From IMG/VR virus record IMGVR_UViG_3300017986_000075, positions 1-32,407 of that record: DNA of 32,407 nucleotides; one strand, given 5' to 3'. Positions 2,715-30,724 of this stretch are shown one piece after another. The notes beneath the pieces are model-generated. The model made no database searches and was not told the DNA's origin. It worked only from the letters and a program-made list of their open reading frames with translations. Each line of letters begins with the position of its first letter. Position 1 is the first letter of the stretch. Source of the DNA: a virus. The position numbers were made by a program, and so were the translations under genes.

Positions 2715-3853
2715 TAGTTACTCGATTACGAAGTACAGAATATTATAAAGGTGAACCATTAAATCATATTGTTGATTCACATTATCATTTGTTAAATAAC
2801 TTCATAGAAAAATATGATACATGGCCACATTCTTTTGATACCTACAATTGTTCTTTACCATCACGAGAAAAGAAAAGAACTAATGTTAGAGATTTAAATA
2901 TACTTAAAGAATCTGATGTGTTGATAATACCAAGTGAAGCTGAATTTGCTTATAACATTTATGGTAGGATTCAAAATCTATTAATGGGTAGAAGTTGGGG
3001 TAATGTAGAATACATGAGAGAAATTTTAAGAGATAATCCTAAACCACGAAAAGTTATTTTGTTCACAAGTGATAAAGCAGATACAATAGAATTATATAGA
3101 GATAAAGTTTTTAAAGATGTTCCTAATTTAACATTTTACCAAATAGATGAAAGTGAGTTTCCAGGTGGAGTACATCATTTAAAATATATAAACATAAAAA
3201 AACAAAATCTTGATACCACGAAAAAAACTGATTTTGGATATTGGGGAACTTCTAAAAAATTTAAAATTGATTCTACATCAGAGATGAGAGATTATCATGT
3301 AAAGGATTATTATAAAGATGGTAAGATTGTAAAGTATGGTACTGCTGGATGTGAATTGAAAACAAGATTTATAGAACCATTGTATGTTGGTAAAGAATCA
3401 AAAGATGAACGACACTTAATATTAAAAGAAATTTATAAAGATGAATCAATTAGTAATAATTTAATTGGATACTTTGATGGATTTCAATACACACATAAGT
3501 TCGATAAGAATATGACTAATATTTTACCACACTTATCAGAATGTAAATTTACACTTTGTTTTAATTGGCCAGGTCAAGAAGAACATTTAACTTCAAGATA
3601 CAATGAGGCATTAGGTTGTGATATTATTCCATTAGTGTGGCAAAATTATGATTGTAATAATCAGTTAGTATTAGATGATAGACAAAGAATGTTTTCTTTC
3701 GAAGATATAAAAAAGTGCTTGACTTCTACATCAGAAAGTGTTAGATTACAATGGTTAAATTCTATTCAAGAAAAGTATTTAAGTGTAACTAAACCAATAG
3801 AATATTATGAGGAATCGTTTAACCAAAAATTAATGAAGATACTAAATGATTGA
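2696..3853 (+). CDS. Exostosin-like (GT-B type) glycosyltransferase
   Basis: With the TTG start the protein is 385 aa. Starting at ATG 2654 would add 14 residues read in another frame over the PLP gene. The C-terminal third carries a signature like that of exostosin/GT47-type transferases: around residues 282-315 there is CKFTLCF, then a Gly, then SRYNEALGCDIIPLVW, i.e. strand, basic Arg, helix, and a strand with I-P-L/V that binds the nucleotide sugar. The N-terminal half is alpha/beta with an ESDVLIIPSEAE segment. There is no signal peptide or membrane segment, so it acts in the cytoplasm. Its stop overlaps the next glycosyltransferase in an ATGATTGA arrangement. It could glycosylate modified bases in phage DNA, a protein or a lipid; the sequence alone does not decide. 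Confidence 0.6.
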   Translation: MECGKVVVTRLRSTEYYKGEPLNHIVDSHYHLLNNFIEKYDTWPHSFDTYNCSLPSREKKRTNVRDLNILKESDVLIIPSEAEFAYNIYGRIQNLLMGRSWGNVEYMREILRDNPKPRKVILFTSDKADTIELYRDKVFKDVPNLTFYQIDESEFPGGVHHLKYINIKKQNLDTTKKTDFGYWGTSKKFKIDSTSEMRDYHVKDYYKDGKIVKYGTAGCELKTRFIEPLYVGKESKDERHLILKEIYKDESISNNLIGYFDGFQYTHKFDKNMTNILPHLSECKFTLCFNWPGQEEHLTSRYNEALGCDIIPLVWQNYDCNNQLVLDDRQRMFSFEDIKKCLTSTSESVRLQWLNSIQEKYLSVTKPIEYYEESFNQKLMKILND

Positions 3854-4721
3854 TAAGATTTATATACCTACAGTTGGCAGACCTAATGAACAAGTAACTT
3901 GGGATAATCTACCAAAACAATTACAAGAAAAAGTTTGTTTTGTTATTCATGAAAGAGAAAAAGATTTATATGATTATGATGCAGAGTATTTAGTATTATC
4001 TGATGAACTAAACACTATTGCAAAAGTTAGGAAAGAAATTATATATCACGCTGATGAACAACGATTTTGTATGTGGGATGATGATGTTATTTTCTACAGA
4101 AGAAATAGAAAGTATTATGGTGATTTAAGAATTAATGAAGTTTATATTCCAGATGTATTAAAAGAAGATGGTAGCCCATTATCAAAATGGAAAATGCAAT
4201 ATAGAGATTTTGTAGAGATGTTTGCTCAATTCAATGAATGGTTTGATAATGAAAAAACTTTAGTTCATATTGGACACAGAAGAACTAATTTGCCACCATT
4301 AGGTTCAACACATGATAACATATTTTTTAATTCTATGCATTGTATTGATGGTAAAAAATGTAAAGGGTTTAGAGATTATGTAGATTGGGATTTATGTCAA
4401 GTTGGTGAAGATGCTAACTTTATGTTAGAGTATTTAACAAGAGGTTATACAAACCGAAGAACAGATTTATATTCAGCACATTGGGGTTCATATCAAGAGG
4501 GTGGTTGTTCGGAATATCGAGATGCAGAGTTTCACAATAAAGAACATGAGAAGTTGATGAATAAATGGCCAGAGTATGTGAGTATTAGAAAAGAAATGAT
4601 GGCTCAAGGTAAAGATGGAAAAAACATTGGTATGATAAAAGAGTTTAAATATGATATGAAAAAAGCACATAGAGATTCTACAAACAAGTATTTAGAAAAC
4701 TTTAAAAAATTTGATAACTAA
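3846..4721 (+). CDS. GT-A glycosyltransferase resembling the TET-associated glycosyltransferase (TAGT) family
   Basis: A 291-aa protein with the layout of small GT-A glycosyltransferases. It starts with a strand and loop IYIPTVGRPNEQVT (residues 5-18), continues with an IAKVRKEII helix (58-66), and has the metal/sugar-nucleotide motif WDDDVIF at 77-83, where Asp78-80 form the DxD. A GEDANFMLEYLTRGY segment near 189-203 would supply the catalytic acidic residue. This combination is what I know from phage TET-associated glycosyltransferases that decorate hydroxymethylated bases, but no TET/JBP or hydroxymethylase gene is visible in the window. It overlaps the upstream glycosyltransferase by 8 bases and is followed by a small gap before the HD gene. 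Other GT-A roles, such as surface glycan modification, are possible. Confidence 0.6.
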   Translation: MIDKIYIPTVGRPNEQVTWDNLPKQLQEKVCFVIHEREKDLYDYDAEYLVLSDELNTIAKVRKEIIYHADEQRFCMWDDDVIFYRRNRKYYGDLRINEVYIPDVLKEDGSPLSKWKMQYRDFVEMFAQFNEWFDNEKTLVHIGHRRTNLPPLGSTHDNIFFNSMHCIDGKKCKGFRDYVDWDLCQVGEDANFMLEYLTRGYTNRRTDLYSAHWGSYQEGGCSEYRDAEFHNKEHEKLMNKWPEYVSIRKEMMAQGKDGKNIGMIKEFKYDMKKAHRDSTNKYLENFKKFDN

Positions 4722-13339: not shown

Positions 13340-16300
13340 ATGATTAATTACGGATTAACACCTAAAGATAGAGAACAATTAGAATCCAAAAAGAATTTAT
13401 ATTCTGGTTTTGGAAGAGATAGTCGTGATTATATTCATTTGTATGTTTATAATAAACAAGGTACTCTTGTAGAAGATGAAATATTTCCAACAAATGTAGT
13501 TGATTTTACTGATGAAAAAACAATTAATTTAGATATTGGAACTCACTTAAGAGAACTTGGATATTCACAAGGAGAGTTTTCAGTTCAATATTTATTCCTT
13601 AGAAGAATAGCAGGTAAAGATGATACGGTTTTTATAAATGATTATGGTGAAATTCATAGAGGTAAAATACAAACTAAAGTAGTAAATGGAGTAACAAAAT
13701 ATTTCTCTACTAAAAAATTTGGTAATAGAAATTCACAAGCAGAATTAACTGAAATATTTCCAAAGGAAATGAAATATGTTTTCAAAAAAATATCTCAAGA
13801 TAGAACCGAAGTAGAAATTAATTATCAAGATATTAAGAATGGAATCTATAGAAAAAATTTAAAAGAAATAAATAGAATTATAAATTATACACCTACTAAA
13901 CTTCCTGATAATGATGCGGGAACAATTAGATTTGATTTAACAGACCCTTATGTATTAGTTGGAAACTTTGATGAAAAAGATAGAGGATTTACTGATGCGA
14001 TGGTTGGGGGTGAAATATCAATTCAAGGTATTTATGAAATCAATGGTCGTATTATTCAAGAGGAAGAAATTATATATCCTGACCCACCACCACCAGACCC
14101 AATTGATATATTGGATGTGGATTATGTAAAAAAACAAATTAAAGATAAAGTACCAACACCTTTTGTAGATATTGTTGAGGATTTTAGAGAAGAGTTACCA
14201 GAAGAAGATATAGTTTATGGTTGGGATGATTATTCAGGTGTTTGTTTTGTTGGAGATACAAAAGTAAAGTTAAGTAATAATCGTACCATATCAATCAAGA
14301 TGATGAAACCAGGTATGAAAGTTAAAACTCAACAAGGGTATGCAAAAGTATTAAAAGTAACAAAAGAAAACTTACCTTATGGAGATAAGTTTGTAAAATT
14401 TGGTAAACTCATTACAACAAATAGTCATCCAATATTTCACAAGGGTAGTTGGTATCTTGCAAGTGAACTTGGTAAAGAATTTCATGGAGAACCTACTGAT
14501 GTTTGGAATTTATTATTAGATAAACATCACACTATATATGCAGATAATGTAGTGAGTGCTACATTAAACAAATGGAAATCTGATAATAATAAATCTTGGA
14601 AAGAAAGATTTTTTGAATCAAGAAATAGATTTAAAATGTTAAGACCTGCAGGACCAATACCTGGCGGTGGTAATTACAATAGTATGGATGGGGAAAGTGG
14701 ATTTACTGATGAAGGTGGTCTTACTTATGACGCTATACCTGAGGTAAGTGGATATTCTACTCCAAAGAGTACACCTTTTGTTAGTGATAATGAAGTTGTT
14801 ATGGATAGAGTTGTTCCAACATTAACAACAAAAGAAATTGTAAAACAAATAAAGGTTTCTCGAAACACACCTCTACCAATTGTAATACCAGAGATTCGTG
14901 AAGTAGTATCTGTTGATTATAAAGCAAAAATTATTGAGGTGTTAGACCATAATAGAGTTCGTGTTAATAAATCTTGGGAAGATATGTCATTAGAGAATAA
15001 AAATATTGGTGAAGATACATCAAAAGATATTTACCAAGATTTTATGGTTCAGTATATTAAACACCAAGTTGAAAGATTAAATACATATTTAGTTGCAGAG
15101 GGAACTTATAATTTGATTACAAATATGATTCCTAATCCAGATAATCCTGAATCAAGATTTGTAAAGTTATATCAACCATTACCACCACAAATTGAAACAA
15201 TGGATTTGTGTTATTTTGTAGAAGAAAAAATGGAACCATATGTTGATTCAATTAAATTATTTGAATTTGTAGATAGTGAAGAAGAACTTTTATTTTTAAG
15301 ATTACCAGATTTTAATTCAGTAAATAATCCTGTTAATTTTAGAGGAACTAATTTTAATTCATTTAACGATTTGATAGGAACGGATACTGGTGTAAAAGAA
15401 GATGTTCAAAATTTAATTTTATCATCAAGTTTATTAGATGTACAAGTAAATGTAGATTATTCAAAACGAACAGATTCTATAGACCCATTAGTTACTGATT
15501 ATGGTTTTGGTAATTTTGTTCAGTTTGGAAGTGCAGAAAAAAGAATTAAAAACTTTAAAAAGAAATTAGATTTAATACAAACCTATACTTCACAAAGTTT
15601 AGCTTTAAACAATGTTACAGGTTCAAGTGGAACTACAAATGAATACGATAACAAAAAGAGAAGAGTTATAAATTCATTTGACCCTTATGAAAATTATCTA
15701 TATACACAAAGTGGTTCTTATGTATCGAGTTCAGTAGGTGAGTTCTATAGTGCAACTTGGCCAAAAGATAATTCATCATCACCATACATATTAACACACA
15801 CAAGTGCTTCCGCTGCTACAGATTGGTATAGTACTTGGACTGGATATGCTAAAGCGTATGATGATTTAAATCGTGAACGATTAGTAAATAACTTACCACT
15901 TCATGTTACTGCAGATACAGAAAACAATTATTTCTTGAACTTTATGGATATGATTGGACAACAATTTGATGAGATATATGTTTACTTAAGACACTTTACC
16001 GATATTAATGAAAGAGTAAGTAAATTAAGTGAGGGTATTTCAAAAGATATTGTTAGAGAAGTTGCTAAAAGTGCTGGATTCGAAGTAACAAATGGTAATG
16101 ATTTATTAATACTACCACATTATAAGTTGGGTAAGGAAACTGATGGTAGTGCTTTATATGAATCACCACAAGAAGAAGTAACAGAAGAAATATGGAAACG
16201 AATATTAGCAAATACACCATACTTTATGAAAACAAAAGGAACAAAAAGAGCTATACAAGGATTACTAAATTGTTATGGTATTCCAAGTTCTATATTAAGA

Positions 16301-18229
16301 GTTAGAGAATATGGTGGACCTGATAAAGGTACAGCGGTTAATTATGAAATAAAAAGAAAGTTCACATATGCATTAGATTTTAAATCAAGTGAGTATTTAA
16401 GATTGCCTTGGAAACAAGTAAGTAGTAAAGTACCAGAGACGGTTGAGTTTAGATTTAGAAGTCCTAAATCAAAAGACCAAACAATTGTACAGAGTGGTGA
16501 TAAGTGGGCAATCCAATTACAAGATAACGGAGCAACTGATGATTATGGTTATTTAAGATTTGCAGTTAGTGCTTCTACAGGTGTTCAATACATTACATCA
16601 TCACTACATCCATTTTATAATGATGATATGTGGAGTGTGATGTTAACCAGAGTTTCATCAAGTGGTTTAGATTTAAGTAATGATACAATCACACAAGATA
16701 TCACATATGAATTAACCACAAGACAATATGATTCCACAAGAGAAGTTGTATTATTCTCATCAAGTGAAAGTATAGATATTGATGGTAATACTGCAGCAGG
16801 TGCAGCATTTAATTCAGCATTTTCAAGTAGTGAAGATTTTTATATTGGTGGTGATGGTACAAACTTTGGAACACAATTTAGTGGTTCATTAATGGAGTTC
16901 AGATTATGGAGTGAACCATTATCACAAAGTGTATTTGAGAATCATGTTAGAGCACCAAAAACATATAATGGTAATACCACTTCATCATTTTATGATAATT
17001 TAATTTTCAGATTACCATTAGATAATAATGTTAGTTATCAAACATACACAAGTGCATCTCAAGATAAATCATATATTAAATCTTATCATACGAGTGCAAG
17101 TGCTCACAATTTTACTGGTAATAATTTTAGAAGTTTAGTAGATTTAGAACAATTAAGAGTTCCTAATTTAGGTCCTAATCGTAGAAACGCAACCAAGATT
17201 AGAATTGAAGATACAACATTAAGTGGTCCATTAGCATCTAATGTTCGTAGAGAACAATCATCACAAGATTTTGCACCTGTGGATAGTAATAAGTTAGGAG
17301 TATATTTTTCACCAACAGATATCGTGAATGAGGATATTGCATATAGTATAGCTGATTTTAACTTTGATGATTATGTTGGAGACCCAAGAGACCAATACAA
17401 AGATACTTATAGAGGGTTAGGTTCTATACAAAGAACTTATTGGAAAAAATATTCTCGTACAAATAACTTTTGGGATTACTTAAGAATTATAAATTTTTAT
17501 GATGGTGGAATTTGGCAACAAATAAGAAAGATGGTTCCAGCAAGAGCTAAATCAACATTGGGTGTGTTGATAGAACCAAATGTTTTAGAAAGAAGTAAAC
17601 AAGTAGTTGGTAAACCACCAGAGTTTGAAAATGTATATTATGAAAATGCAGGACACTTTGATTTTGGATTACAATTAAGTTCAAGGGAAACAAGTTCGAT
17701 TGGACATCCACCATTCAGTTTAAATGGTGAATATAGATTATTTGGACAAAGTAATAGTACTTATCCAACTAATGGCGTATTAAATGTACATAATAATGAA
17801 AGTGGTTCACTTGGAACTATATCATTACCATCGTTAATACGATTAAACGAAATAGACCCACGAAGTGAATATGGTAGTTTATACGCAACTGCAAGTGTTA
17901 CATTTAATGGAAGTGCTGATTCATTTACAGAAACACTTCAAACCTTTGTTAGCTCATCAAGATTAAGTGAACACAATGAAATTAAATATAAAATTTATAC
18001 GAGTTCGTTAGATGCCGTAACTGATAATCCTAATAGTTCATCATTTGAACCAGCAGAATTTCAGAGTATGGCATACGACTCAAAACTATTTAGACTTTTT
18101 TATAAAGGAAATATATTAACAAAAGATAATACGATTGATGGGGGAGAACCTGTTGAGATAACTATAACATCACCTACTAAATTGGTTACCACCGATAGTG
18201 GCGAATCAAAATTAAAAACAGATGTATAA
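13340..18229 (+). CDS. Giant baseplate protein (gp7 position) with Hint and LamG-like domains
   Basis: At 1629 aa this is the largest gene. Domains in order: an N-terminal virion-attachment region (1-240); a proline linker (PDPPPPDP, about 247-254); a Hint/intein-like domain at 302-412 beginning CFVGDTKVKL, with a TNSHPIF block (His363) and a final HTIYADNVVSATLN; a long alpha/beta region; a tail-protein-I-like motif near 950-985 (FMKTKGTKRAIQGLLNCYGI); a LamG/concanavalin-like sandwich at about 1030-1210 ending FSGSLMEFRLWSEPLS; and a Ser/Asn-rich C-terminal part. T4 places gene 7 (1032 aa) directly after gene 6, so it is probably the wedge protein with added domains. The Hint domain lacks the terminal His-Asn needed for normal splicing. 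AGGA precedes the ATG. Confidence 0.75.
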   Translation: MINYGLTPKDREQLESKKNLYSGFGRDSRDYIHLYVYNKQGTLVEDEIFPTNVVDFTDEKTINLDIGTHLRELGYSQGEFSVQYLFLRRIAGKDDTVFINDYGEIHRGKIQTKVVNGVTKYFSTKKFGNRNSQAELTEIFPKEMKYVFKKISQDRTEVEINYQDIKNGIYRKNLKEINRIINYTPTKLPDNDAGTIRFDLTDPYVLVGNFDEKDRGFTDAMVGGEISIQGIYEINGRIIQEEEIIYPDPPPPDPIDILDVDYVKKQIKDKVPTPFVDIVEDFREELPEEDIVYGWDDYSGVCFVGDTKVKLSNNRTISIKMMKPGMKVKTQQGYAKVLKVTKENLPYGDKFVKFGKLITTNSHPIFHKGSWYLASELGKEFHGEPTDVWNLLLDKHHTIYADNVVSATLNKWKSDNNKSWKERFFESRNRFKMLRPAGPIPGGGNYNSMDGESGFTDEGGLTYDAIPEVSGYSTPKSTPFVSDNEVVMDRVVPTLTTKEIVKQIKVSRNTPLPIVIPEIREVVSVDYKAKIIEVLDHNRVRVNKSWEDMSLENKNIGEDTSKDIYQDFMVQYIKHQVERLNTYLVAEGTYNLITNMIPNPDNPESRFVKLYQPLPPQIETMDLCYFVEEKMEPYVDSIKLFEFVDSEEELLFLRLPDFNSVNNPVNFRGTNFNSFNDLIGTDTGVKEDVQNLILSSSLLDVQVNVDYSKRTDSIDPLVTDYGFGNFVQFGSAEKRIKNFKKKLDLIQTYTSQSLALNNVTGSSGTTNEYDNKKRRVINSFDPYENYLYTQSGSYVSSSVGEFYSATWPKDNSSSPYILTHTSASAATDWYSTWTGYAKAYDDLNRERLVNNLPLHVTADTENNYFLNFMDMIGQQFDEIYVYLRHFTDINERVSKLSEGISKDIVREVAKSAGFEVTNGNDLLILPHYKLGKETDGSALYESPQEEVTEEIWKRILANTPYFMKTKGTKRAIQGLLNCYGIPSSILRVREYGGPDKGTAVNYEIKRKFTYALDFKSSEYLRLPWKQVSSKVPETVEFRFRSPKSKDQTIVQSGDKWAIQLQDNGATDDYGYLRFAVSASTGVQYITSSLHPFYNDDMWSVMLTRVSSSGLDLSNDTITQDITYELTTRQYDSTREVVLFSSSESIDIDGNTAAGAAFNSAFSSSEDFYIGGDGTNFGTQFSGSLMEFRLWSEPLSQSVFENHVRAPKTYNGNTTSSFYDNLIFRLPLDNNVSYQTYTSASQDKSYIKSYHTSASAHNFTGNNFRSLVDLEQLRVPNLGPNRRNATKIRIEDTTLSGPLASNVRREQSSQDFAPVDSNKLGVYFSPTDIVNEDIAYSIADFNFDDYVGDPRDQYKDTYRGLGSIQRTYWKKYSRTNNFWDYLRIINFYDGGIWQQIRKMVPARAKSTLGVLIEPNVLERSKQVVGKPPEFENVYYENAGHFDFGLQLSSRETSSIGHPPFSLNGEYRLFGQSNSTYPTNGVLNVHNNESGSLGTISLPSLIRLNEIDPRSEYGSLYATASVTFNGSADSFTETLQTFVSSSRLSEHNEIKYKIYTSSLDAVTDNPNSSSFEPAEFQSMAYDSKLFRLFYKGNILTKDNTIDGGEPVEITITSPTKLVTTDSGESKLKTDV

Positions 18230-21233: not shown

Positions 21234-21242
21234 TATATTTAT
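21234..21242 (+). promoter_or_regulatory. TATATTTAT late-promoter-like motif for the envelope operon
   Basis: TATATTTATTAATGA (21234-21248) is identical over 15 bases to the motif before the baseplate operon. It lies 79 bases before the T9SS cargo gene. The remaining leader holds a weak CCCG/CGGG hairpin (21272-21289). Confidence 0.55.
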
Positions 21243-21320: not shown

Positions 21321-24197
21321 ATGAAGAGTATTTTAAATTGGCTCTTATTATTGGGTTTTGTCGGAATGGCCACTGCACAAACACCAATCATAAGGGTTAA
21401 GCAAATAGGTACATGGTCTACACCAGCAATGTGGTGGAAAGATTCGGTTACACAAGATTTAGATGATTTCTTAGCACAAGATGCAACCAAACCTGCCGAA
21501 GATAACAATAACTTTGATATTTGGAGAGATAAAGTATTGGAGATGGAAGTTACTTTGGATGATAATGGTGCAGATATCACAACATTCAGAATAGATATAG
21601 CATTTGATAACGATTTAATCACTTGGGTAGAATCAGGTGAAACAGCAGTTAACGCATGGACACAAGGAAATTCAAAAGTTATTAAAGGTTCACACATTTC
21701 AGGTCTTGTTGAAGGTGATGAAACATCAAATAACGATACAGACTATTCTTTTGAAGTAGTTTACTACGATGATGTAGGATATCAAGATTCATTAGCAGTA
21801 GGTAGTTCTGAACAATTGATAGAAGAAAGTATTGAAGATGACAGATACGATTGGTTAAGAATAACTATGGTATCACACGGAGTAGATGCGAATAATGATG
21901 GAACACCAGATGTTACTTTTGGTGATGGGGATGGTGTTCAAGCACAAGTATTAAAATTTAATTTTTTAATCAATGATGTTGTAGATGATTTTGCACCAAG
22001 AGCATTTAGAGTTGCAACTCAATACGATGGTGATGAGGGATACTACACATATGTTTCAGATGATTATCTTTTAGATTCTAAAGTTTATATTGATGGTAAT
22101 TGGGGTGATTATTATTCAGCAGAAAGAACTTATAATGGTGGTGCTCGTGGAGATATCACACTACATCCAAAACTTGTGCAACTTGAGGGATACTTAAGAT
22201 ACATTGGTGAATGGATTGATACTGATAAAGATGGAGTAAAAGATACAGGTGAAGATTTCTCACAAAACAAATATGCTATGATGAAAGTTATCTTTGAGGT
22301 AGATGAAACTAATCCAGATAATCTTTCTAATTGGAGAAACATAAGAGATATTAATTATCCATCAAGTTTAACAGATGAGTCTTTAAACGATGATGTTATG
22401 GGAACTTATGATGAGTATGGAACATTTGCACAAGGGTATCAACATATGAGATACTATGAACAAAATGCAGGAACAACATCAGACCAAAAGATTCAGAATC
22501 AAGGATTTAAAGATGTAAGTTATTGGTATTGGACATACACAGATGATAAAGGATATTTCAATATTTCTTTACCAAGAAACAATAGATATAAAGTATCGTT
22601 CTGGCCACCAGAAGCAGATGATGTGGTTGGAGACCATACCACTTATTTATTAGATAGAGATGCAATCACAAATATCAATGATGCGATTGCAGGATTTAAT
22701 TTCCAAAGTAATAAATTTGATAACGAAACAGATATTGAGATAGAATCACCAAGTGGATATTTAGTTGGTGATGTTGATGGTGATGATAAATACCAATTAA
22801 ATGATGCCTACTTCTTATGGGCATATACAAGTGGAGTGTTTGATACAGATTACACACACTACAATGGTGAAACTTATCAACAATGGTCAAGTATAGATAA
22901 TTTAAATGGAGTTGATGATTCTTATACTTACAAACAAGATTATGATGGATTCACACGAAACCAAAGAAGAGAGTTCAGTATCTTTGTTGATGGTGATTTA
23001 AATCAAGAAACTACAGAACTAACTACAGATGGTGGTGGTATTATTAGATTAAATCCATTAATGAATGATGTTGAGACTGGATTAGATGTATTAAGTATTA
23101 AAGTTGGAGCAGGTAGTTCTACATTTGGAGATGACCATAATCCTGATTATTACTTTGACCAACCAGATGGAGTAAATGGTTCTAAACAAGTAGATATTGT
23201 TGGAACTGATAATGATTCTGATATTGGATTCTACTTTACAGGTGATGTAAACCTAACAGGTGTTAAAGTTGATAACAATGGAACAGCAATTACACCAACC
23301 GTAGATGGAACAACATATTATCGTTGGGGTAATGGTTCACCGCCAGATGAGTGGGCAAGAACAATGGATAATAATAGAAGTTTAAATAAAATAATGACAG
23401 ACCACGATGTATTATTATCATTCCCACCTGATTCAACAATACGAGTTCAAAGTGGTGAGATTATAGAAGTACCATTAGAAATAACACCATCAGAAGATAT
23501 TAATATTGCAGGGTTTGAATTTGAAGTTGAGTTCAATACAGGTGAGTTAGAATTTATTGATATGAAAACTGGTAACTTACCAGGACCGTGGATGACATAT
23601 GTAAATGTAGGTGAAGTTAATCAAGAGGGATGGCAACGAGTAAGATTTGGTGGTATGGATTATTCACCAGGTAATGCACCACAAGATTATTATGTTACTG
23701 AACAAATGAATGCACTAAAGTTAATGTTTAGAGCAGATTTCCCTGAATCAGAATGGACAGAAGCTCCTATTAGATTCGTAGGTAAATATGCAGCAGGTAA
23801 TCCAAATGGTGATGATTTAAATATGAAAAGAGAAAGTGGTAAAGTAATGGTATGGAATAAGTATTGGGCATTCGGTGGTGGAGAACCATCAGGTGATGAA
23901 ATAACTTATAACTATCCAAATCCATTTAAAGAGAATACAAAATTTCAATTCTACTTAGACCAAGAAGAAAATGTTAAAATTTACATATTAAATTCTAATG
24001 GACAATACATTGGAACATTATTAAATGAAGTTGTTAGTTCAGGTTTACATACATTTGATTTCACTAACCAACCAAGTGTTTGGTTACCTGAAGTGAGTGT
24101 GTATGAGAATCACCAAACTTTAGAACCAGGTGTTTATATATTTGTTCTTGAAACAGATAATAAAATTAAAGCAAATAAATTTACGGTGGTTAAATAA
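21321..24197 (+). CDS. Secreted multidomain protein with a type IX secretion (T9SS) C-terminal sorting domain
   Basis: A 958-aa protein with a Sec signal peptide (residues 1-20, cleavage after ATAQ). The mature part is beta-rich with several acidic Asp/Asn loops. Residues 479-506 contain a dockerin-like calcium loop (GDVDGDDKYQLNDAYF). Residues 697-850 resemble a cohesin-type beta-sandwich (SGEIIEVPLEI, then IAGFEFEVEFNTGELEFIDM). Residues 864-958 form a type-A T9SS sorting domain: YPNPF at 864-868, KIYILNSNGQYIGTL, GLHTFDF, PGVYIFVLE and a final NKFTVVK. This signal sends cargo across the outer membrane in Bacteroidota and relatives. AAAGGA precedes the ATG. It is followed by a 35-aa peptide and a PorV/Q-like barrel in tight succession. 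The role in infection is unknown. Confidence 0.8.
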   Translation: MKSILNWLLLLGFVGMATAQTPIIRVKQIGTWSTPAMWWKDSVTQDLDDFLAQDATKPAEDNNNFDIWRDKVLEMEVTLDDNGADITTFRIDIAFDNDLITWVESGETAVNAWTQGNSKVIKGSHISGLVEGDETSNNDTDYSFEVVYYDDVGYQDSLAVGSSEQLIEESIEDDRYDWLRITMVSHGVDANNDGTPDVTFGDGDGVQAQVLKFNFLINDVVDDFAPRAFRVATQYDGDEGYYTYVSDDYLLDSKVYIDGNWGDYYSAERTYNGGARGDITLHPKLVQLEGYLRYIGEWIDTDKDGVKDTGEDFSQNKYAMMKVIFEVDETNPDNLSNWRNIRDINYPSSLTDESLNDDVMGTYDEYGTFAQGYQHMRYYEQNAGTTSDQKIQNQGFKDVSYWYWTYTDDKGYFNISLPRNNRYKVSFWPPEADDVVGDHTTYLLDRDAITNINDAIAGFNFQSNKFDNETDIEIESPSGYLVGDVDGDDKYQLNDAYFLWAYTSGVFDTDYTHYNGETYQQWSSIDNLNGVDDSYTYKQDYDGFTRNQRREFSIFVDGDLNQETTELTTDGGGIIRLNPLMNDVETGLDVLSIKVGAGSSTFGDDHNPDYYFDQPDGVNGSKQVDIVGTDNDSDIGFYFTGDVNLTGVKVDNNGTAITPTVDGTTYYRWGNGSPPDEWARTMDNNRSLNKIMTDHDVLLSFPPDSTIRVQSGEIIEVPLEITPSEDINIAGFEFEVEFNTGELEFIDMKTGNLPGPWMTYVNVGEVNQEGWQRVRFGGMDYSPGNAPQDYYVTEQMNALKLMFRADFPESEWTEAPIRFVGKYAAGNPNGDDLNMKRESGKVMVWNKYWAFGGGEPSGDEITYNYPNPFKENTKFQFYLDQEENVKIYILNSNGQYIGTLLNEVVSSGLHTFDFTNQPSVWLPEVSVYENHQTLEPGVYIFVLETDNKIKANKFTVVK

Positions 24198-24304
24198 TGG
24201 AAACGATAAAGTTTTTTGGATTACTATTTTTAATATTACCTTTAGGGTTTTATACTTTAAAGGGTATCGTTTGGTTATCTGAAAAATTGGAGAAGAGAAA
24301 ATGA
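24197..24304 (+). CDS. 35-aa membrane peptide
   Basis: The ATG overlaps the cargo stop (TAATG) and the stop overlaps the barrel gene start (ATGA), so it bridges the two by translational coupling. One hydrophobic span (FFGLLFLILPLGFYTL) is followed by a basic helix ending EKLEKRK. No family can be named. Its coupling suggests a helper of the cargo or the barrel, by position only. Confidence 0.6.
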   Translation: METIKFFGLLFLILPLGFYTLKGIVWLSEKLEKRK

Positions 24305-25137
24305 AAAATATATTAATAGGATTATTAATGATGGGAAGTTTGTTTGGACAAATAAATAATGTCCTTACAATTTCACCTACTGCAAGTGAAACCACTTTAG
24401 GTAATCAATCACTTGAGTTTAGAAATCCTGCAAGAAATTCTTTAGATACATTAGATTCTAAAGTAAACTTGAGTTTAACAAATGTTAAATGGTTAGGAAA
24501 CATTGTTGATGATATGGGTTTTAATTATTTAGAAGCCTCAAATAAAAAGTTTGATTATTCAATGTTGTATTTTAACTATGGTGAACAACAATATGCTGAT
24601 GAAACAGGATTTGTTCAAGGTAAGTTTACACCAAGTACTTTACTTGTTGGTACAAGTTGGGGAACTAAATTACCATTTGGACACATAGGTGTTACAGGTA
24701 AAATAGTTAATCATACTTTACATACAGAAAAGATAAATGGTGTATTAACTGATTTAGGATATTATTTAAATACAAAACACTTTGAGTTTGATGTAATGAT
24801 TTCAAACTTGGGATTATACTTTACAGAAGAAGTAGATGCTCCAACGGCATTAAATCTTGGATTAAGTAAATCTTTTCAACAAGGAGTTGATATTTATAGT
24901 CAGATAAACTTGTACGATGGTTATAATACTTTTGGACAAGGTCTATCATATAATATCAAAGGATTAATGAATGTAAATGCTGGATATTATAGTGATTCAA
25001 CACACGAATTAACTTATTCATCAGTTGGATTTGATATAAATTATGATAGATATAAATTTGGATTTGGTTATCTTTTCGGAGATGAAACACATCCATTAGG
25101 AAATACATTATTATTAACATTAAACTTGGAGATATAA
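24301..25137 (+). CDS. PorV/PorQ-like outer-membrane beta-barrel
   Basis: A 278-aa protein with a signal peptide (about 1-16, ending SLFGQ) and alternating aromatic strands throughout. The order of landmarks matches PorV/PorQ proteins of the type IX secretion system: an early FRNPARNSLD, an NYGEQQYADETGFVQGKF segment, a GTSWGTKLPFGHIGVTGKI hairpin, DLGYYL, a MISNLGLYF strand and LNLGLSKSF. It ends with a hydrophobic strand LTLNLEI. In the T9SS, PorV shuttles cargo from the SprA channel to the attachment complex, and PorQ belongs to that complex. It is shorter than cellular members (about 330-400 aa), with a reduced N-terminus. Location three codons after the sorting-domain gene supports a link. 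A different porin-like barrel cannot be excluded. Confidence 0.6.
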   Translation: MKNILIGLLMMGSLFGQINNVLTISPTASETTLGNQSLEFRNPARNSLDTLDSKVNLSLTNVKWLGNIVDDMGFNYLEASNKKFDYSMLYFNYGEQQYADETGFVQGKFTPSTLLVGTSWGTKLPFGHIGVTGKIVNHTLHTEKINGVLTDLGYYLNTKHFEFDVMISNLGLYFTEEVDAPTALNLGLSKSFQQGVDIYSQINLYDGYNTFGQGLSYNIKGLMNVNAGYYSDSTHELTYSSVGFDINYDRYKFGFGYLFGDETHPLGNTLLLTLNLEI

Positions 25138-25138
25138 A

Positions 25139-25519
25139 ATGGCAAAAGATATAGAACAGGCTATTGAAGATGTTAAAGGGAAAAAATTCGGAGTATCAAT
25201 TAACAATATTATCGCTATTGTTACTTTTCTTTCTACCGCAATTGCTGGTTGGTATAGTTTTACTGGCCGTATTGATTCGTTGGAAGAAGTAGTACAAGGA
25301 TTTGCGGAAGCAAGTGATATTGAAATTGTAACGAATAACTTTAACAATATTGATGAAGAATTAAAATATCTACGAGAAAAAGTAGATGGTTTAAAAACAC
25401 CAAAAGTAAAATCTTACGATGGGGATATAATTAAACTACAGAATGAGATTGATAAATTAAAAGGTGAAATCTCAAGATTAGAGAAATTATTAAAAGACCC
25501 ATTATCAGATTTTAAATAA
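25139..25519 (+). CDS. Single-span membrane protein with periplasmic coiled coil
   Basis: A 126-aa protein with a charged cytoplasmic N-terminus, a membrane segment at about residues 22-42 (NNIIAIVTFLSTAIAGWY), and a long coiled coil at about 85-120 (KLQNEIDKLKGEISRLEKLL). GGAG precedes the start, one base after the barrel gene stop. The topology resembles inner-membrane spanin or tether proteins that reach towards the outer membrane. No family was recognised. Confidence 0.6.
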   Translation: MAKDIEQAIEDVKGKKFGVSINNIIAIVTFLSTAIAGWYSFTGRIDSLEEVVQGFAEASDIEIVTNNFNNIDEELKYLREKVDGLKTPKVKSYDGDIIKLQNEIDKLKGEISRLEKLLKDPLSDFK

Positions 25520-25535
25520 ACCGAAAGGGTAAACA

Positions 25536-25889
25536 ATGAGTAAATTTATTAAACTACTAATTGCAGTAGTTTTGTTTAGTGTGGGTACACAATTATTTGC
25601 ACAAGACAAAGAAGTTGTAAAAGAAATTGTAGAACATAAATTGGAACAACATCAATTGATGAAGTACAAAGAATGGGAAGCAATGCACAAAAGATTTCAT
25701 ATGAAAGAGAAACGAAAAATCCAAATGGATATGAGATACAAACATATGAAACAAAGAAAACAAAAGAGAATAGTTACTCTTTTTGTTGTAGGTGGATTAT
25801 CATACTACATTGGTTATGAAATGGGTAAAGATAAACACAATGGTAAACCTGGTGGAAAGAAACCACCTATGATTTGGAGAGATAAATGA
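25536..25889 (+). CDS. Small exported basic protein
   Basis: A 117-aa protein with a signal peptide (about 1-22, ending TQLFAQ), a very basic Met/Lys/His/Arg-rich helical middle (about 45-80), and a second hydrophobic stretch at about 83-97 (RIVTLFVVGGLSYYIGYEM), then a Lys/Gly/Pro tail. It overlaps the next gene as ATGA. Function unknown; a periplasmic or membrane-associated accessory of the envelope operon is inferred from position. Confidence 0.6.
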   Translation: MSKFIKLLIAVVLFSVGTQLFAQDKEVVKEIVEHKLEQHQLMKYKEWEAMHKRFHMKEKRKIQMDMRYKHMKQRKQKRIVTLFVVGGLSYYIGYEMGKDKHNGKPGGKKPPMIWRDK

Positions 25890-26524
25890 AAAAACTATTA
25901 CTATTATCGTTAATGTTTTTTATGGGATGTGCTGCATCAGTATCAACAGAACAATATGTTGGTGAATATGAGAAACAAAAATCATTAGATGAAATCGAAA
26001 TCACTAAAGTGGATAATCTAAAAATTTTAGATGTAAAATTCAATAAAGAGATTGAAGATAGATATCCAGAACTTGCAGATAAACGAGTTGCTTTTGGTTT
26101 AAACCAAGAACTTGCAAATGTAATTTCTTTTATCGGTAGATTTAATCTTGTGGAAGCAGACAGAGATATACAATTATCAATGTTAAACGACCTAAAAGCA
26201 AACGATGCAAAAATAGAGAAAACCAAATACACTGCGTATGTAACAATATACGATTTTGCTGTGAATCTTAAAGAGGATATCAAGGCTGGTAAAGTTGAAA
26301 CAATCAACGAAACCATCGTAGGAATTCAAGTTAAGGTAATCAACAATGAAAATACTCAGTATGTAGTTGGAAGTGGACAAGGAAGAGCTTCAACAATCGG
26401 ACAAGGATTTTTAAAGAATCCTAATATGGATTGGAATCAAAGTTCTTTAAGTTCAGCATCTAACAAAGCTATGGAAACTGCGGTTGTAAATGTAATTAAA
26501 GCAATTGACCGTAGGGGTTGGTAA
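25886..26524 (+). CDS. CsgG-like outer-membrane lipoprotein
   Basis: A 212-aa lipoprotein: signal sequence with lipobox FMGC, Cys15 being the lipidated residue. The mature part follows the CsgG/curli-secretion pattern: RVAFGLNQELANVISFIGRF (short helix), KTKYTAYVTIYDFAVNL (the 'xxYxxxGxIxxF'-like strand), VGIQVKVINNENTQYVVGSG (strand, turn, strand) and a C-terminal helix SNKAMETAVVNVIKAID. CsgG forms an outer-membrane channel for curli subunits; whether this protein oligomerises is unknown. GGAG precedes the ATG. A second, less conserved relative follows two genes later. Confidence 0.55.
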   Translation: MKKLLLLSLMFFMGCAASVSTEQYVGEYEKQKSLDEIEITKVDNLKILDVKFNKEIEDRYPELADKRVAFGLNQELANVISFIGRFNLVEADRDIQLSMLNDLKANDAKIEKTKYTAYVTIYDFAVNLKEDIKAGKVETINETIVGIQVKVINNENTQYVVGSGQGRASTIGQGFLKNPNMDWNQSSLSSASNKAMETAVVNVIKAIDRRGW

Positions 26525-26529
26525 GATGA

Positions 26530-27513
26530 ATGTGGCAGAGATTATTATTAATAATACTTTTATGGGGTAGTGTCTCTGCCCAAGGCTTCCTTTATAGTTA
26601 TATAGACCCTTGTAATCAAACCATTGTTCGAGATAATTATTCACTCGAAACTCAAGATGGTGGATTCTATGTTACATATTATAACAAATCTAAATTTTTC
26701 ACTTTTGAACAATTATTAAACGGAGAGTTGGAAGCTTGGACAGAAAAAGTATTCCGAGATTTTGAAGATTTATTCCCTTGTGCAGTTAGGGTGGCAGAAG
26801 AAATACTTTCATCAGTATTGGCAAGTAACGCCACAGAACAATTCACAAAACAAGATGTAAGTAATGATGTATCTCAAGTTAATTATGGAATTAAAGCATC
26901 ACCAACCGTAGATAGTACTTGGGTAACTTCGTTTAATAGTATTTACACAAGAGAAAGTTTTGATGGTAAATCAAGATATGATGGTAATTTTAATTTTACG
27001 AGTGATTTCAGTAGATTTAGTACATCGTATGGACAGGGAATAAACTTCCTTGCCAAAAAACAAAATAGAGTGATAAGTGCATCAGGTGTTTTATTCAAAA
27101 CATTTGAAGGTCAAGATTGGTTGGTATCAACATCATATGCAAAATCACTTGTAAAGAAAAGAGGAGAAGTTATTGTTTTAACTGGAGCTTATGGAAATGT
27201 TAGTGAAAACCAATTTGGTAACCTATCAGTATTGTATGGTATGAGAATGCCAGTAGACTTACCATTTGGAAAGGTAACATTTACGAACTATATATCTTAT
27301 ACATTATTTAGATATTATAGTGGATTAAATTCAGGTAAACAATATTTATTATTGAAGAGTCCTATAATATTGATGCCTACGATTTCTTTTGACTTTCAAT
27401 TGAGTCAAGCATTTAAGATAAACTTGGGGTTCAGTATGGGATATAACACAGTTGTGAACGATTATGGGGAAAGAACTAAAACCTATTCCATAATGTTTGG
27501 AACTTACTTTTAG
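26530..27513 (+). CDS. Outer-membrane beta-barrel protein
   Basis: A 327-aa protein with signal peptide (about 1-18, ending SVSAQ), a short N-terminal globular part with two Cys (residues about 28 and 82), then from about residue 110 many amphipathic strands with aromatic ends (TSYGQGINFLAKKQNRVISA, GKVTFTNYISYTLFRYYSG). It ends with Phe in MFGTYF, a typical barrel C-terminus. It lies between the two CsgG-like genes in the envelope operon. No specific family was recognised; a transport or receptor-modifying function is possible. Confidence 0.6.
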   Translation: MWQRLLLIILLWGSVSAQGFLYSYIDPCNQTIVRDNYSLETQDGGFYVTYYNKSKFFTFEQLLNGELEAWTEKVFRDFEDLFPCAVRVAEEILSSVLASNATEQFTKQDVSNDVSQVNYGIKASPTVDSTWVTSFNSIYTRESFDGKSRYDGNFNFTSDFSRFSTSYGQGINFLAKKQNRVISASGVLFKTFEGQDWLVSTSYAKSLVKKRGEVIVLTGAYGNVSENQFGNLSVLYGMRMPVDLPFGKVTFTNYISYTLFRYYSGLNSGKQYLLLKSPIILMPTISFDFQLSQAFKINLGFSMGYNTVVNDYGERTKTYSIMFGTYF

Positions 27514-27522
27514 GAGAAGAAA

Positions 27523-28050
27523 ATGAGATTAGCAATAAAATTTGTTTTAGGATTTTTGATGGGTACGATTATTACTGCACAATCTTTACCACAACCATCA
27601 GTTGTTGGAAAAGATGTAGAATTTCCTACAATAAAAATATCAGAGTTTGTTAAGGTGGATGAATCGATTGGTATTGTGGATAATAGAGTAACTTTAGGTG
27701 TGAAACAATTACTTGAAGAAGAATTCCAAAATACAAGATATAGATTAACAGATGATGATAATGCTGATTATACTGCAAATGTAGAGATTCTATATATTGG
27801 TAAACCAAATACTGCATTTAGTATTGCTGGTTTATTCAATCGTAGAAATCAAGAAACAGAAGTTAGATTGTTAGTAAACTTGGTACAAAACAAAGAGGGT
27901 ACACAAAGAAGTTATCGTGGTATTGGTGAAACAACCACACAAGTATCTGCTGCAGGTTTACAAATTCAAGAAGATGTAGAATTTGGTAGAAGTGAATTAG
28001 GTTCATCTTTGAGAAAAGCAATAGTTGATGCATTACAAAATGTTGAGTAA
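27523..28050 (+). CDS. Second CsgG-like periplasmic/outer-membrane protein
   Basis: A 175-aa protein with signal peptide (about 1-20, ending ITAQ) and no lipobox. The mature part resembles the CsgG-like lipoprotein three genes upstream in layout: IKISEFVKVDESIGIVDNRV, a short helix KQLLEEEFQNTRY, DYTANVEILYIGK (strand), TEVRLLVNLVQNKEGTQRSY with RGIGE (paired strands and turn), and a closing helix SSLRKAIVDALQNV. It may be a partner or paralogue of the lipoprotein. AGGAG precedes its start. Assignment rests on pattern only. Confidence 0.5.
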   Translation: MRLAIKFVLGFLMGTIITAQSLPQPSVVGKDVEFPTIKISEFVKVDESIGIVDNRVTLGVKQLLEEEFQNTRYRLTDDDNADYTANVEILYIGKPNTAFSIAGLFNRRNQETEVRLLVNLVQNKEGTQRSYRGIGETTTQVSAAGLQIQEDVEFGRSELGSSLRKAIVDALQNVE

Positions 28051-28086
28051 TGTTTTTTTGAAATATTATAAGTAAGGAGTTACACA

Positions 28087-28812
28087 ATGAATAGAGAATT
28101 TTTAATTGGTGCAATTCTAAATATAGTTTTTGTTTTAGTAGTAGTGGGAACACGATATTATTATGCAAAACAAGAAATGGATTTTCTTATCGAGGATTCA
28201 GCAAGACAAGATGTTTTGATTGAAGAATTAAGAGATTCTGTAGATGTATTAAAAGTACAGAATGATGAGATACTTACTGATTTACATGACCACAACAAAA
28301 CTCGTGGATATGAGAATCAAAAATTAAAAGAACAAATGAGTGAGTTCCAAGTAGAATTAGATACTATAAAAGAACGACTTTCTAAAAAAGTATCTATTTA
28401 TGATAGAGGAACAACCACAAGTGGAACAGGTATAATTCCATTTGAAAAAGAATTTGGTAGACAAGATGATTACCTACGAATCTTTGGTAGAAGTGGTGTT
28501 GCTATTGAGAACGATAGCATTGTAGATTACGAAACCAATTTAGGATTCGATGGTAGTTTAGAACAAGGTGAACCTTTTATAGAAGAAGGTGAAGTTAAAG
28601 GTGAATGGTATGCAATCGTACCTGAAAGACAATTTGATGGTTTACGATTAGGTAGTAGAAGAAGTAAACCATTCAGTATTAAACCACCACGAAACCAAAT
28701 TAGTGTTGGACCGTTTTTTGGAATCACATATGACCAAACTACAGGTTTAACTGAACCCGTTGTAGGATTTGGAATTACTTATAACGCGTTCAAAATATGG
28801 GATTGGAGATAA
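28087..28812 (+). CDS. Membrane-anchored coiled-coil protein with C-terminal beta domain
   Basis: A 241-aa protein. An N-terminal membrane span (about residues 7-24, GAILNIVFVLVVVGTRYY) is followed by a coiled coil to about residue 100 (LKEQMSEFQVELDTIKERL), a Gly/Asp/Glu-rich linker, and a final 45 residues (ISVGPFFGITYDQ then VVGFGITYNAFKIW) with the look of a small beta hairpin pair. This span-coil-barrel-like end is reminiscent of proteins near lysis genes of Bacteroidota phages, so a spanin-like role is possible. AAGGAG precedes the ATG; it overlaps the following 28-aa frame. Confidence 0.6.
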   Translation: MNREFLIGAILNIVFVLVVVGTRYYYAKQEMDFLIEDSARQDVLIEELRDSVDVLKVQNDEILTDLHDHNKTRGYENQKLKEQMSEFQVELDTIKERLSKKVSIYDRGTTTSGTGIIPFEKEFGRQDDYLRIFGRSGVAIENDSIVDYETNLGFDGSLEQGEPFIEEGEVKGEWYAIVPERQFDGLRLGSRRSKPFSIKPPRNQISVGPFFGITYDQTTGLTEPVVGFGITYNAFKIWDWR

Positions 28813-28898
28813 TGGAATATATAATATTAGGATTTTGTACATTAATGGTAGTGGCATTTGTACAAGTTCAAATGTGGAAAGATAAAGATGCCAAATAG
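28812..28898 (+). CDS. 28-aa membrane peptide
   Basis: The ATG overlaps the preceding stop (TAATG). One hydrophobic span (YIILGFCTLMVVAFVQVQMW) is followed by a charged tail KDKDAK. It overlaps the next basic gene by 11 bases. Its tight overlaps on both sides favour a real gene over chance. Confidence 0.5.
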   Translation: MEYIILGFCTLMVVAFVQVQMWKDKDAK

Positions 28899-29034
28899 AG
28901 AAGCAAAAAGTAGAAAACAAAAAAGACAGGCCTTAAATAAAAAGTGGGCTCGTGAGGGAAGAACTGCAAACCAACATAAAAAGTGGAAAGCAAAGAATCC
29001 TGATGCACAACAACAAAATCGTTGGGGAAGATAA
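28888..29034 (+). CDS. 48-aa strongly basic protein
   Basis: About one third of the residues are Lys or Arg (MPNREAKSRKQKRQALNKKW onward), with three Trp and a Gln/Asn-rich end. It is likely a nucleic-acid-binding or packaged peptide. The stop overlaps the next ATG (TAATG at 29032-29036), and GGGGAAG in its last codons serves as ribosome binding site for that gene. Family not recognised. Confidence 0.5.
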   Translation: MPNREAKSRKQKRQALNKKWAREGRTANQHKKWKAKNPDAQQQNRWGR

Positions 29035-29690
29035 TGATTAAATTAAAAGATTTATTAGTAGAGAATCCAGTTAGTACGGTAAATCCACCAAGAAATCTTG
29101 GTAAGGAAACAGAATACGGACACTTAAATTTTGGATTTCATTTAAAACCAGTAGCAAAGGCAGTTGATGATATTTATAAATTGTGTCGAAAAATAGATAT
29201 CGTTTCAACAGATTTTGATGATAGAGATTTATTAAAACCATTTCATCATTTAGGTTCTTGGGAAGATGAAAAGATTAAAGAACCAATCTTAACTTCTGTT
29301 AAGAAATTAGATAAGGCACTAAAAAGTCCTGAAAAAAACTTTGCAGAACCAAAAAGAGTAATTCGTGCGTTACCAGGTGGAAAATCATTTTTAAAACAAT
29401 TTATGAGTAAATTTAAAACTTTATCTTCTTACATAAAAAACTTTGATAAATTCAAAGACCAAAAAATATCAAAAGTAATTCCAAACACCAAAGGAACAGA
29501 AGTTGCTAATAAAAAAGTAGGTGATTATGTTCAATTCACCACTCTTGATTATTTAGATGATATCACTAAATTAGTAACTGGTCAAAGTGGATTTGAAATG
29601 AATAGAATGAGTGATATTGTTAGTGATTTAGCATATAAAACAAAAGGTAATAGAGCTAAAGTTCAAATAACTGCTAAAACACCAAAATGA
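29034..29690 (+). CDS. 218-aa protein with candidate capsid-targeting leader
   Basis: I place the start at ATG 29034, preceded by GGGGAAG, rather than the in-frame TTG at 29022. The N-terminus MIKLKDLLVE resembles the capsid-targeting leader of T4 internal head proteins (MKTYQEFIAE), with LVE fitting the (L/I)xE cleavage pattern of the T4 prohead protease. The rest is Lys-rich and helical with no enzymatic motif. The next two proteins begin with related leaders. It overlaps the following gene as ATGA. Could be an internal head protein; unproven. Confidence 0.55.
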   Translation: MIKLKDLLVENPVSTVNPPRNLGKETEYGHLNFGFHLKPVAKAVDDIYKLCRKIDIVSTDFDDRDLLKPFHHLGSWEDEKIKEPILTSVKKLDKALKSPEKNFAEPKRVIRALPGGKSFLKQFMSKFKTLSSYIKNFDKFKDQKISKVIPNTKGTEVANKKVGDYVQFTTLDYLDDITKLVTGQSGFEMNRMSDIVSDLAYKTKGNRAKVQITAKTPK

Positions 29691-30310
29691 TTAAGTTAAA
29701 AGAATTACTAACACTTCGTGGAATGGTTTACTCTGAAGAGATAAAACCAAAACACAAAAAGAAGATTGAAATGAAAACTTCTCTATGGGATGAGAATATA
29801 GTTATACCAAAAATAACACCACCTGAAAATGACTCATCTAAAACACTAAAGGAAGTAAAGTATTTATCAAAGATAAAACCAAATAATGAGTTTGCAGAAT
29901 CTGGTGATGATGTAAAAGAAAACTTTATGCCACTAATTGAAAAAAATGGTTTAAATGTTACTAAAGAATTTTTATCTAAAATAATTAAAGAAAGTTCTAA
30001 ATTTATTATGGAACTTAAATATCATTATAATCGTCCAAGACCATATCAGATTGCAGAGTTTTATGATATTGATTTAAATGGTACTACATTAAATAGTATG
30101 AAAACACCATCGTTCCCAAGTGGACATGCAGTTCAAGGTTATTTAATTGGTGAGTATTTATCATTTAAAGACCCAAGAATGGCACACGAATATAAACAAG
30201 CAGGAGAAGATATAGCTCAATCAAGAATTGTTGCAAAAGCACATTATCCGAGTGATAAAGAATATGGTAAAATTGTTGCAAGAGCGTTATTTAGAGGTAT
30301 GAAAAGATGA
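29687..30310 (+). CDS. PAP2/class A acid phosphatase-like protein
   Basis: A 207-aa protein with all three PAP2-superfamily phosphatase motifs: K-x6-R-P at Lys111 to Arg118-Pro119, PSGH at 144-147, and S-R-x5-H-x3-D at Ser179-Arg180, His186 and Asp190. The catalytic His186 and Asp190 are intact. There is no signal peptide or membrane span; instead it begins MIKLKELLTL, nearly the same leader as the protein before it. The 60 residues after the leader are Lys/Pro-rich. Substrates could be phospholipid, sugar or nucleotide phosphates. If the leader directs packaging, the enzyme would be delivered with the DNA. Confidence 0.75.
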   Translation: MIKLKELLTLRGMVYSEEIKPKHKKKIEMKTSLWDENIVIPKITPPENDSSKTLKEVKYLSKIKPNNEFAESGDDVKENFMPLIEKNGLNVTKEFLSKIIKESSKFIMELKYHYNRPRPYQIAEFYDIDLNGTTLNSMKTPSFPSGHAVQGYLIGEYLSFKDPRMAHEYKQAGEDIAQSRIVAKAHYPSDKEYGKIVARALFRGMKR

Positions 30311-30699
30311 CATCTCTAAAAGAGATTTTTTTATTACAAGAAAGAACTGATTTATTATTTGTAGCATCTGAATTAGTAAAACACTATAATTTAAAATCTA
30401 AAGTGAAGTTTGGTACATTTGGTAAAGATAAAGGTGGTTACAATTGGGATACTGATACAATAATGTTAAATAAGTATTACCCAAAAGTTTCTGAGTTTAT
30501 TATTACCGTATTACATGAGATTCATCATGCTATTCAAATTGATAAATATGGTAGAAAAAAGTTTATGAAAAAATATAATCAGGCATCTAATATGGCTCAA
30601 TTAGATGGTAAAGATAGATATTTTGCAAATAAATGGGAAAGAAAAGCAGAAAATTGGGCAAAACAAGAATATAGAAGAAAATGGAAAAATAATTTTTAA
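30307..30699 (+). CDS. HExxH metalloprotease-like protein
   Basis: A 130-aa protein with a zinc-protease helix HEIHH at residues 70-74 (VLHEIHHAIQID) after a beta region (TIMLNKYYPKVSEFIITVL). A candidate third ligand lies in the WERKAENWA helix near 109-117. The layout resembles small SprT- or ImmA/IrrE-like metalloproteases. Its N-terminus MTSLKEIFLLQE resembles the two preceding leaders, with LQE as a possible cleavage site. It overlaps the phosphatase stop as ATGA. The target protein is unknown. Confidence 0.6.
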   Translation: MTSLKEIFLLQERTDLLFVASELVKHYNLKSKVKFGTFGKDKGGYNWDTDTIMLNKYYPKVSEFIITVLHEIHHAIQIDKYGRKKFMKKYNQASNMAQLDGKDRYFANKWERKAENWAKQEYRRKWKNNF

Positions 30700-30715: not shown

Positions 30716-30724
30716 TATATTTAT
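30716..30724 (+). promoter_or_regulatory. TATATTTAT promoter-like motif directly before the nuclease gene
   Basis: TATATTTAT ends only eight bases before the ATG at 30733. If transcription starts about 13 bases after the first T, as at T4 late promoters, the mRNA would have a leader of only a few bases. No Shine-Dalgarno is visible there. Confidence 0.45.

Follow-up and report, generated by a model that had tools for sequence, protein, structure and literature searches.

Why should a marine phage carry a run of genes whose products are all directed to the cell envelope? The window analyzed here is a 32.4-kb virus fragment (IMG/VR record IMGVR_UViG_3300017986_000075) that also encodes T4-like baseplate proteins (gp25-like g9083 and gp6-like g9513). 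The block consists of eight consecutive plus-strand genes at 21321-28812, with ORF coordinates that agree with those of the original prediction. Nearly every product had been expected to have a signal peptide, lipobox, barrel or membrane span. An N-terminal hydrophobic segment (signal peptide, lipobox or span) is in fact present in all eight products, compared with only one of the other 25 genes in the window, a distribution with a chance probability of about 6.5e-7 (hypergeometric). Five of the products have a signal-peptidase-I site, one has a lipobox and two have a transmembrane span followed by a coil. The genes had also been described as overlapping or lying a few bases apart. This is largely so, as the block is nearly contiguous, but the cargo and PorV genes are separated by 103 bp, a gap filled by a 35-aa ORF. 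Short membrane-peptide ORFs below the cut-off of the ORF list occupy two gaps. The first (24197..24304, plus strand) encodes a 35-aa single-span membrane peptide with a stop-start overlap at either end, and a similar ORF is found at the same position in six relatives (L003, L004, L006, L094, L110 and L123). The second, seen in the window sequence (28812..28898, plus strand), encodes a 28-aa membrane peptide and overlaps the stop codon of g28087.

The first gene of the block, g21321 (21321..24197, plus strand), encodes a 958-aa protein with a signal peptide with Q at +1, a cohesin-like domain at residues 709-753 and a type A sorting domain of the type IX secretion system (T9SS) at residues 865-956. 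It is the single T9SS cargo that had been anticipated, its C-terminal domain (CTD) matching TIGR04183 (T9SS type A sorting domain) with 29 bits against a cut-off of 23. TIGR04183 is found in all 24 aligned relatives of the cargo and the cohesin-like domain in 22 of the 24. The Sec signal consists of a hydrophobic N-terminus and an A-T-A/Q site; Q20 is invariant among the 24 sequences, as is K953, a lysine near the C-terminus. The cargo CTD exceeds the cut-off in 20/20 type A records and in 0/12 type B records, which carry the alternative cassette described below.

Two barrels had been predicted in the block, the first of them left unnamed. Judged by its family match (PorV/PorQ family model, E=1.6e-22) and its place in the tree, this first barrel, g24301 (24301..25137, plus strand; 278 aa), is PorV, an outer-membrane shuttle and putatively the cargo's carrier. 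All 21 phage proteins match NF033709 (PorV/PorQ family); the window protein scores 80.5 bits, just below the cut-off of 90, and the copies in a second phage group (group II) score 110-122 bits, above it. Against NF033710 (PorV equivalog) g24301 reaches 42.4 bits, below the 250-bit cut-off, and we class it by these scores as a PorV-family member and not as an orthologous PorV. In the tree the phage PorVs form one clade with long branches that groups with PorV and not with PorQ (support 95/89). A profile built from 21 phage copies has a single match in the PDB, the Flavobacterium johnsoniae PorV of the T9SS translocon (E=3.6e-14), and with a profile of 15 copies, family members were detected in 221 of the 296 Bacteroidota genomes searched.

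The PorV gene lies directly downstream of the cargo gene, and does so in all 42 distinct relatives with a sufficiently long contig. Each of the 20 type A records has exactly one PorV; the 12 type B records have none. PorV evolves faster than its neighbors, with 56-58% identity in the nearest relatives compared with 91-96% for g25886, and the phage copies fall into two subclades. In cells, type A CTDs are carried by one shared PorV, and each type B cargo is paired with its cognate PorP/SprF shuttle, encoded directly downstream (PMC12618676); PorV loops bind the CTD within SprA (PMC10994853). As read from its sequence, the phage cargo-PorV pair has the gene arrangement of type B systems and the parts of type A. 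One relative, L101, has a mosaic cargo. Its tail genes, PorV and the rest of its block belong to a second lineage, but within its cargo the resemblance is to the window lineage at residues 301-420 and 541-720 (97% at 361-420) and to L101's own lineage at 721-900, with a mixture over the last 58 residues. The pattern fits an exchange of the passenger while the sorting end and PorV remain paired, and it could also reflect plain linkage.

PorV is followed by a 126-aa protein (25139..25519, plus strand) with one membrane span and a coiled coil, a distant homologue of which occurs in the alternative cassette, and by a 117-aa exported basic protein (25536..25889, plus strand) that is missing from some relatives. 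The best conserved gene of the block is g25886 (25886..26524, plus strand), which encodes a 212-aa lipoprotein homologous to g27523 (27523..28050, plus strand; 175 aa, exported), with an hhalign probability of 94 and E=1.3e-7. The model of g27523 (pLDDT 68) has a CsgG/PelC/LptE/TraT-type fold (Z 8-12), its match to 6lqh_A (CsgG-type fold) reaching Z 11.2 over 133 residues at 2.9 A, and g25886 is assigned a CsgG/PelC-type fold by homology. Two CsgG-like proteins had been counted in the block. The count stands for the fold of g27523 and the homology of g25886 to it, but neither protein matches the Pfam CsgG family, and because PelC and LptE score alike, 'CsgG-like' on the strength of the model denotes a fold class and not a family. 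A profile-profile comparison of the pair with the HTVC008M CsgG as single-sequence template gave no match, no Pfam match to CsgF or curlin repeats was found in the block, and PDB sequence searches with the cargo, g25886 and g27523 profiles gave no useful match.

The second barrel, g26530 (26530..27513, plus strand; 327 aa), has an N-terminal YIDPC domain that it shares with a third group of phages (group III). Its predicted structure is weak (pLDDT 59) and backs the term 'barrel' only; at that confidence its structural matches to FapF, an autotransporter and PorV are not read as kinship. The last gene, g28087 (28087..28812, plus strand), encodes a 241-aa spanin-like protein with an N-terminal span, a coil and a conserved beta-rich C-terminus. 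It matches phrog_9841 (Rz-like) weakly (E=7.5e-4), and its beta-rich C-terminus suggests that this end may contact the outer membrane.

A promoter-like motif, TATATTTAT, is located in the leader of the cargo gene (21234..21242, plus strand). That such a motif precedes the block is borne out by its distribution: the plus strand of the window holds four exact copies (7001, 18256, 21234 and 30716), all of them intergenic, and 23 loci of relatives hold 52 occurrences, of which 49 lie between genes, at fixed positions. In the relatives it lies upstream of g18306 by about 52-58 bases, of the cargo by mostly 73-103 and of g30733 by 15-87. The copy before the cargo is kept in most type A relatives. 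Relatives with the alternative cassette have the copies before g18306 and g30733 and lack the one at the cassette, so the block brings its own motif. As the next copy is at 30716, the transcription unit probably extends to about 30699, and because the motif is common to the block and the tail genes, the block would be expressed late. The T4 late promoter TATAAATA is not enriched (146 matches with at most one mismatch vs 154 expected). Three consecutive genes at 29022-30699, namely g29022 (product unassigned), g29687 (PAP2 phosphatase) and g30307 (possible metallopeptidase), have similar N-termini (MIKLKDLL, MIKLKELL and MTSLKEIFLL, respectively), which by analogy with T4 internal proteins could be a capsid-targeting tag.

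The original prediction of a coherent module is strengthened by comparison with relatives, all of which are metagenomic fragments. Besides having its own motif, the block keeps its gene order in relatives of the window phage, where 32 sets contain the six core genes complete and in sequence. In some close relatives this same locus, flanked by g20196 on one side and g30307/g30733/primase on the other, is occupied by a different envelope cassette. This alternative cassette (L153 3863-8285; L154) encodes a signal-peptide barrel of 420-433 aa, a lipoprotein, a membrane-coil protein, a signal-peptide thioredoxin-like protein and, at its end, small holin-like membrane proteins; its lipoproteins start C-E-D, resembling surface-export signals. 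On the g19168 tree the two cassettes require five changes, at least three of which are forced by well-supported branches, and one contig (L122) carries both.

The block is also found in an unrelated phage type, group II (L323, L332 and L333, from three metagenomes), where it lies after portal and holin genes, directly following the holin (phrog_3427, E=1.2e-30), and before the capsid genes. It is complete in L323 and cut by contig or locus ends in L332 and L333. Group III (L381-L392) has a different T9SS cargo, small membrane proteins, homologues of g25886 and g26530 and, in most members, g27523, with the order unchanged; an endolysin (phrog_181, E=1e-69) comes after this core in L384, the contig examined. 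No PorV was found in the group III phages. They also encode one more exported protein (327-400 aa), with no family assigned, whose gene separates that of the barrel from the second CsgG-fold gene (L384 9425-10408 and equivalents). Among the relatives compared, the block thus moves as a unit, as the 42 cargo-PorV pairs, the ordered sets, the cassette swap at one locus and its whole occurrence in an unrelated phage indicate; genes scattered singly were not found among them, and only group III is reduced, with its order kept. Judging by gene content, we take the common core to be the cargo, the CsgG-fold lipoprotein, the barrel and the CsgG-fold partner, with PorV an addition in groups I and II.

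Several features bear on the host. At each of the five signal-peptidase-I sites the +1 residue is Q, without exception across the alignments, as in Bacteroidetes and certain other bacteria, Ignavibacterium among them (PMC5837995). A Shine-Dalgarno-like site is present at 21 of the 29 phage starts tested, compared with 1/31 in Flavobacterium phage immuto. Since Bacteroidia ribosomes do not use Shine-Dalgarno sites (PMC9976891), the probable host is a bacterium that has T9SS but does not belong to the class Bacteroidia. One phage contig, L237, is binned in a Flavobacteriales MAG; we do not rely on this assignment for the host, as a PorV-bearing stretch of that MAG has Shine-Dalgarno sites at 0/6 starts vs 21/29 in the phage. 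The sorting-domain motif NYPNPF presumably recalls Marinimicrobia or Ignavibacteria. Strong Shine-Dalgarno use, Q-rule signal peptides and T9SS parts (21321-30699 and relatives) together point to a host group with this combination. In the group III phage examined, Shine-Dalgarno sites are few (3/15 starts), and group III may therefore infect Bacteroidia.

Envelope remodelling, the role first suggested for the block, is a hypothesis. What the block does can be approached from its parts: a cargo that has a Sec signal and a type A CTD, an adjoining PorV, a CsgG/PelC-fold pair, a YIDPC barrel, a spanin-like protein, a motif of its own and movement as a unit, all as identified from sequence. We favor, as rather probable, a late phage envelope module that uses the host's T9SS. 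The block's products would be exported by Sec and the cargo would pass the host translocon SprA, where the phage PorV would collect it and hold or place it on the surface. The phage would thereby gain a matched carrier in stoichiometric amount, like PorP/SprF for type B cargos. The lipoprotein g25886, its paralogue g27523 and the barrel g26530 may form a companion outer-membrane complex, and the end effect would be an outer membrane altered late in infection, by lysis or egress or by unreceptiveness to other phages. Against a dedicated carrier, every type A cargo is normally served by the host PorV, which leaves no obvious need for an extra copy, and group III has the cargo and core genes with no PorV. 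The phage PorV, at 278 aa, is short beside the 402 aa of the F. johnsoniae protein, in which about 88 residues are passed over by the profile; for this reason, docking on SprA is put forward as a proposal.

The block may instead be a lysis or egress cassette, in which the spanin-like protein acts with the CsgG-fold pair and the barrel to breach or fuse the outer membrane and the surface cargo aids release. We judge this possible rather than probable, yet a serious rival, because of the module's neighborhood in other phages, with holin and endolysin genes close by, which the original prediction missed: the holin precedes the block in group II and the endolysin follows the core in group III. The alternative cassette at the same locus likewise ends with small holin-like membrane proteins, g28087 resembles Rz-like spanins, and CsgGF of the OM43 phage Melnitz has been proposed as a lysis factor (PMC9004378). 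However, the window holds no recognized endolysin, and g28087 matches spanins weakly. Nor, to our knowledge, does any lysis system include a carrier protein and an adhesin-like cargo of 958 aa.

Superinfection exclusion, with cargo and barrel coating or altering the surface late and so blocking adsorption of other phages, is in our view also possible, slightly less so than lysis or egress. The cargo is destined for the surface and has mosaic passenger segments, and g27523 shares its fold with TraT surface-exclusion lipoproteins (Z 8.5), but many other proteins of this fold match at least as well as TraT. Exclusion is typically encoded by a single, early gene, whereas TATATTTAT, common to the tail genes, points to late expression here. 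A virion tail fiber or particle decoration is improbable as the role of the cargo, even though its gene directly follows three conserved tail-region genes at a place where Flavobacterium phage immuto has annotated tail fiber/spike genes: the signal-peptide end and sorting domain, invariant in 24/24, speak against it, since an exported protein cannot enter virions assembled in the cytoplasm, and in group II the cargo adjoins head genes. A loose set of host-derived morons with no joint function, for which the fast evolution of PorV and its two subclades might speak, is highly improbable because the gene order is conserved (42/42 adjacency, 32 complete ordered sets and the passage of the entire block into a different type of phage).

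Beyond the late envelope module that we prefer, we raise tentatively the idea of an undescribed, transferable outer-membrane system, whose core, common to unrelated phages of T9SS bacteria, would serve outer-membrane breach or exclusion and to which PorV was added as a dedicated carrier. Like the curli (type VIII) modules of pelagimyophages and the OM43 phage (PMC7029224, PMC9599517, PMC9004378), the block is a multi-gene outer-membrane secretion module with conserved order and a CsgG-fold protein, common to several phage families. Unlike them, it has a T9SS cargo and PorV in place of CsgA/B and CsgF, and its CsgG-fold pair has no detectable sequence kinship to the HTVC008M CsgG. Phage-encoded T9SS sorting domains are also known from Cryophage (PMC7468147) and the crAss-like BACON proteins (PMC6949934), but those were reported as cargo alone, whereas here the cargo comes with PorV and a constant complement of envelope genes. 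As in the type B CTD adhesin and PorP/SprF pairs of Bacteroidota (PMC12618676), the shuttle gene is directly 3' of the cargo gene; the difference is that a type A CTD and a PorV-family shuttle are paired, and in a virus. The phage PorV is homologous to F. johnsoniae PorV (PDB 6h3i chain F) over most of the barrel (E=3.6e-14), but is about 120 residues shorter and belongs to a separate phage clade.

Phage curli secretion parts and single phage T9SS cargos are therefore already known; of a phage with a T9SS carrier protein we found no report, and no published phage PorV in the open-access papers searched. Neither this PorV nor this cargo was found in isolated phages, and no convincing PorV emerged among 50,697 annotated phage records. 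A cellular PorV query returned three 'Bacteriophage sp.' hits, two of which were examined (the third is MT835954). Both of these (the L285/L286 pair) were rejected: MT836897 resembles a bacterial chromosome, with a PorU-PorV-ispF-mnmA stretch, and MT836010, where the neighbors of PorV are a serine protease gene and one of alpha-amylase type, is likely bacterial. A cargo with its own PorV offers a clean test of the purpose of PorV specificity, and a module that crosses between unrelated phages near lysis genes gives a handle on phage strategies for breaching or controlling the outer membrane in T9SS bacteria.

Two other regions of the window deserve mention. At 13340-18229, a 1629-aa tail-region protein has a Vint/Hint domain at residues 301-411 (E=7e-18), which is unusual for a structural protein. 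At 1944-4721, a PALP-type PLP enzyme and a TET-associated glycosyltransferase (TAGT) are encoded, which suggests DNA base hypermodification.
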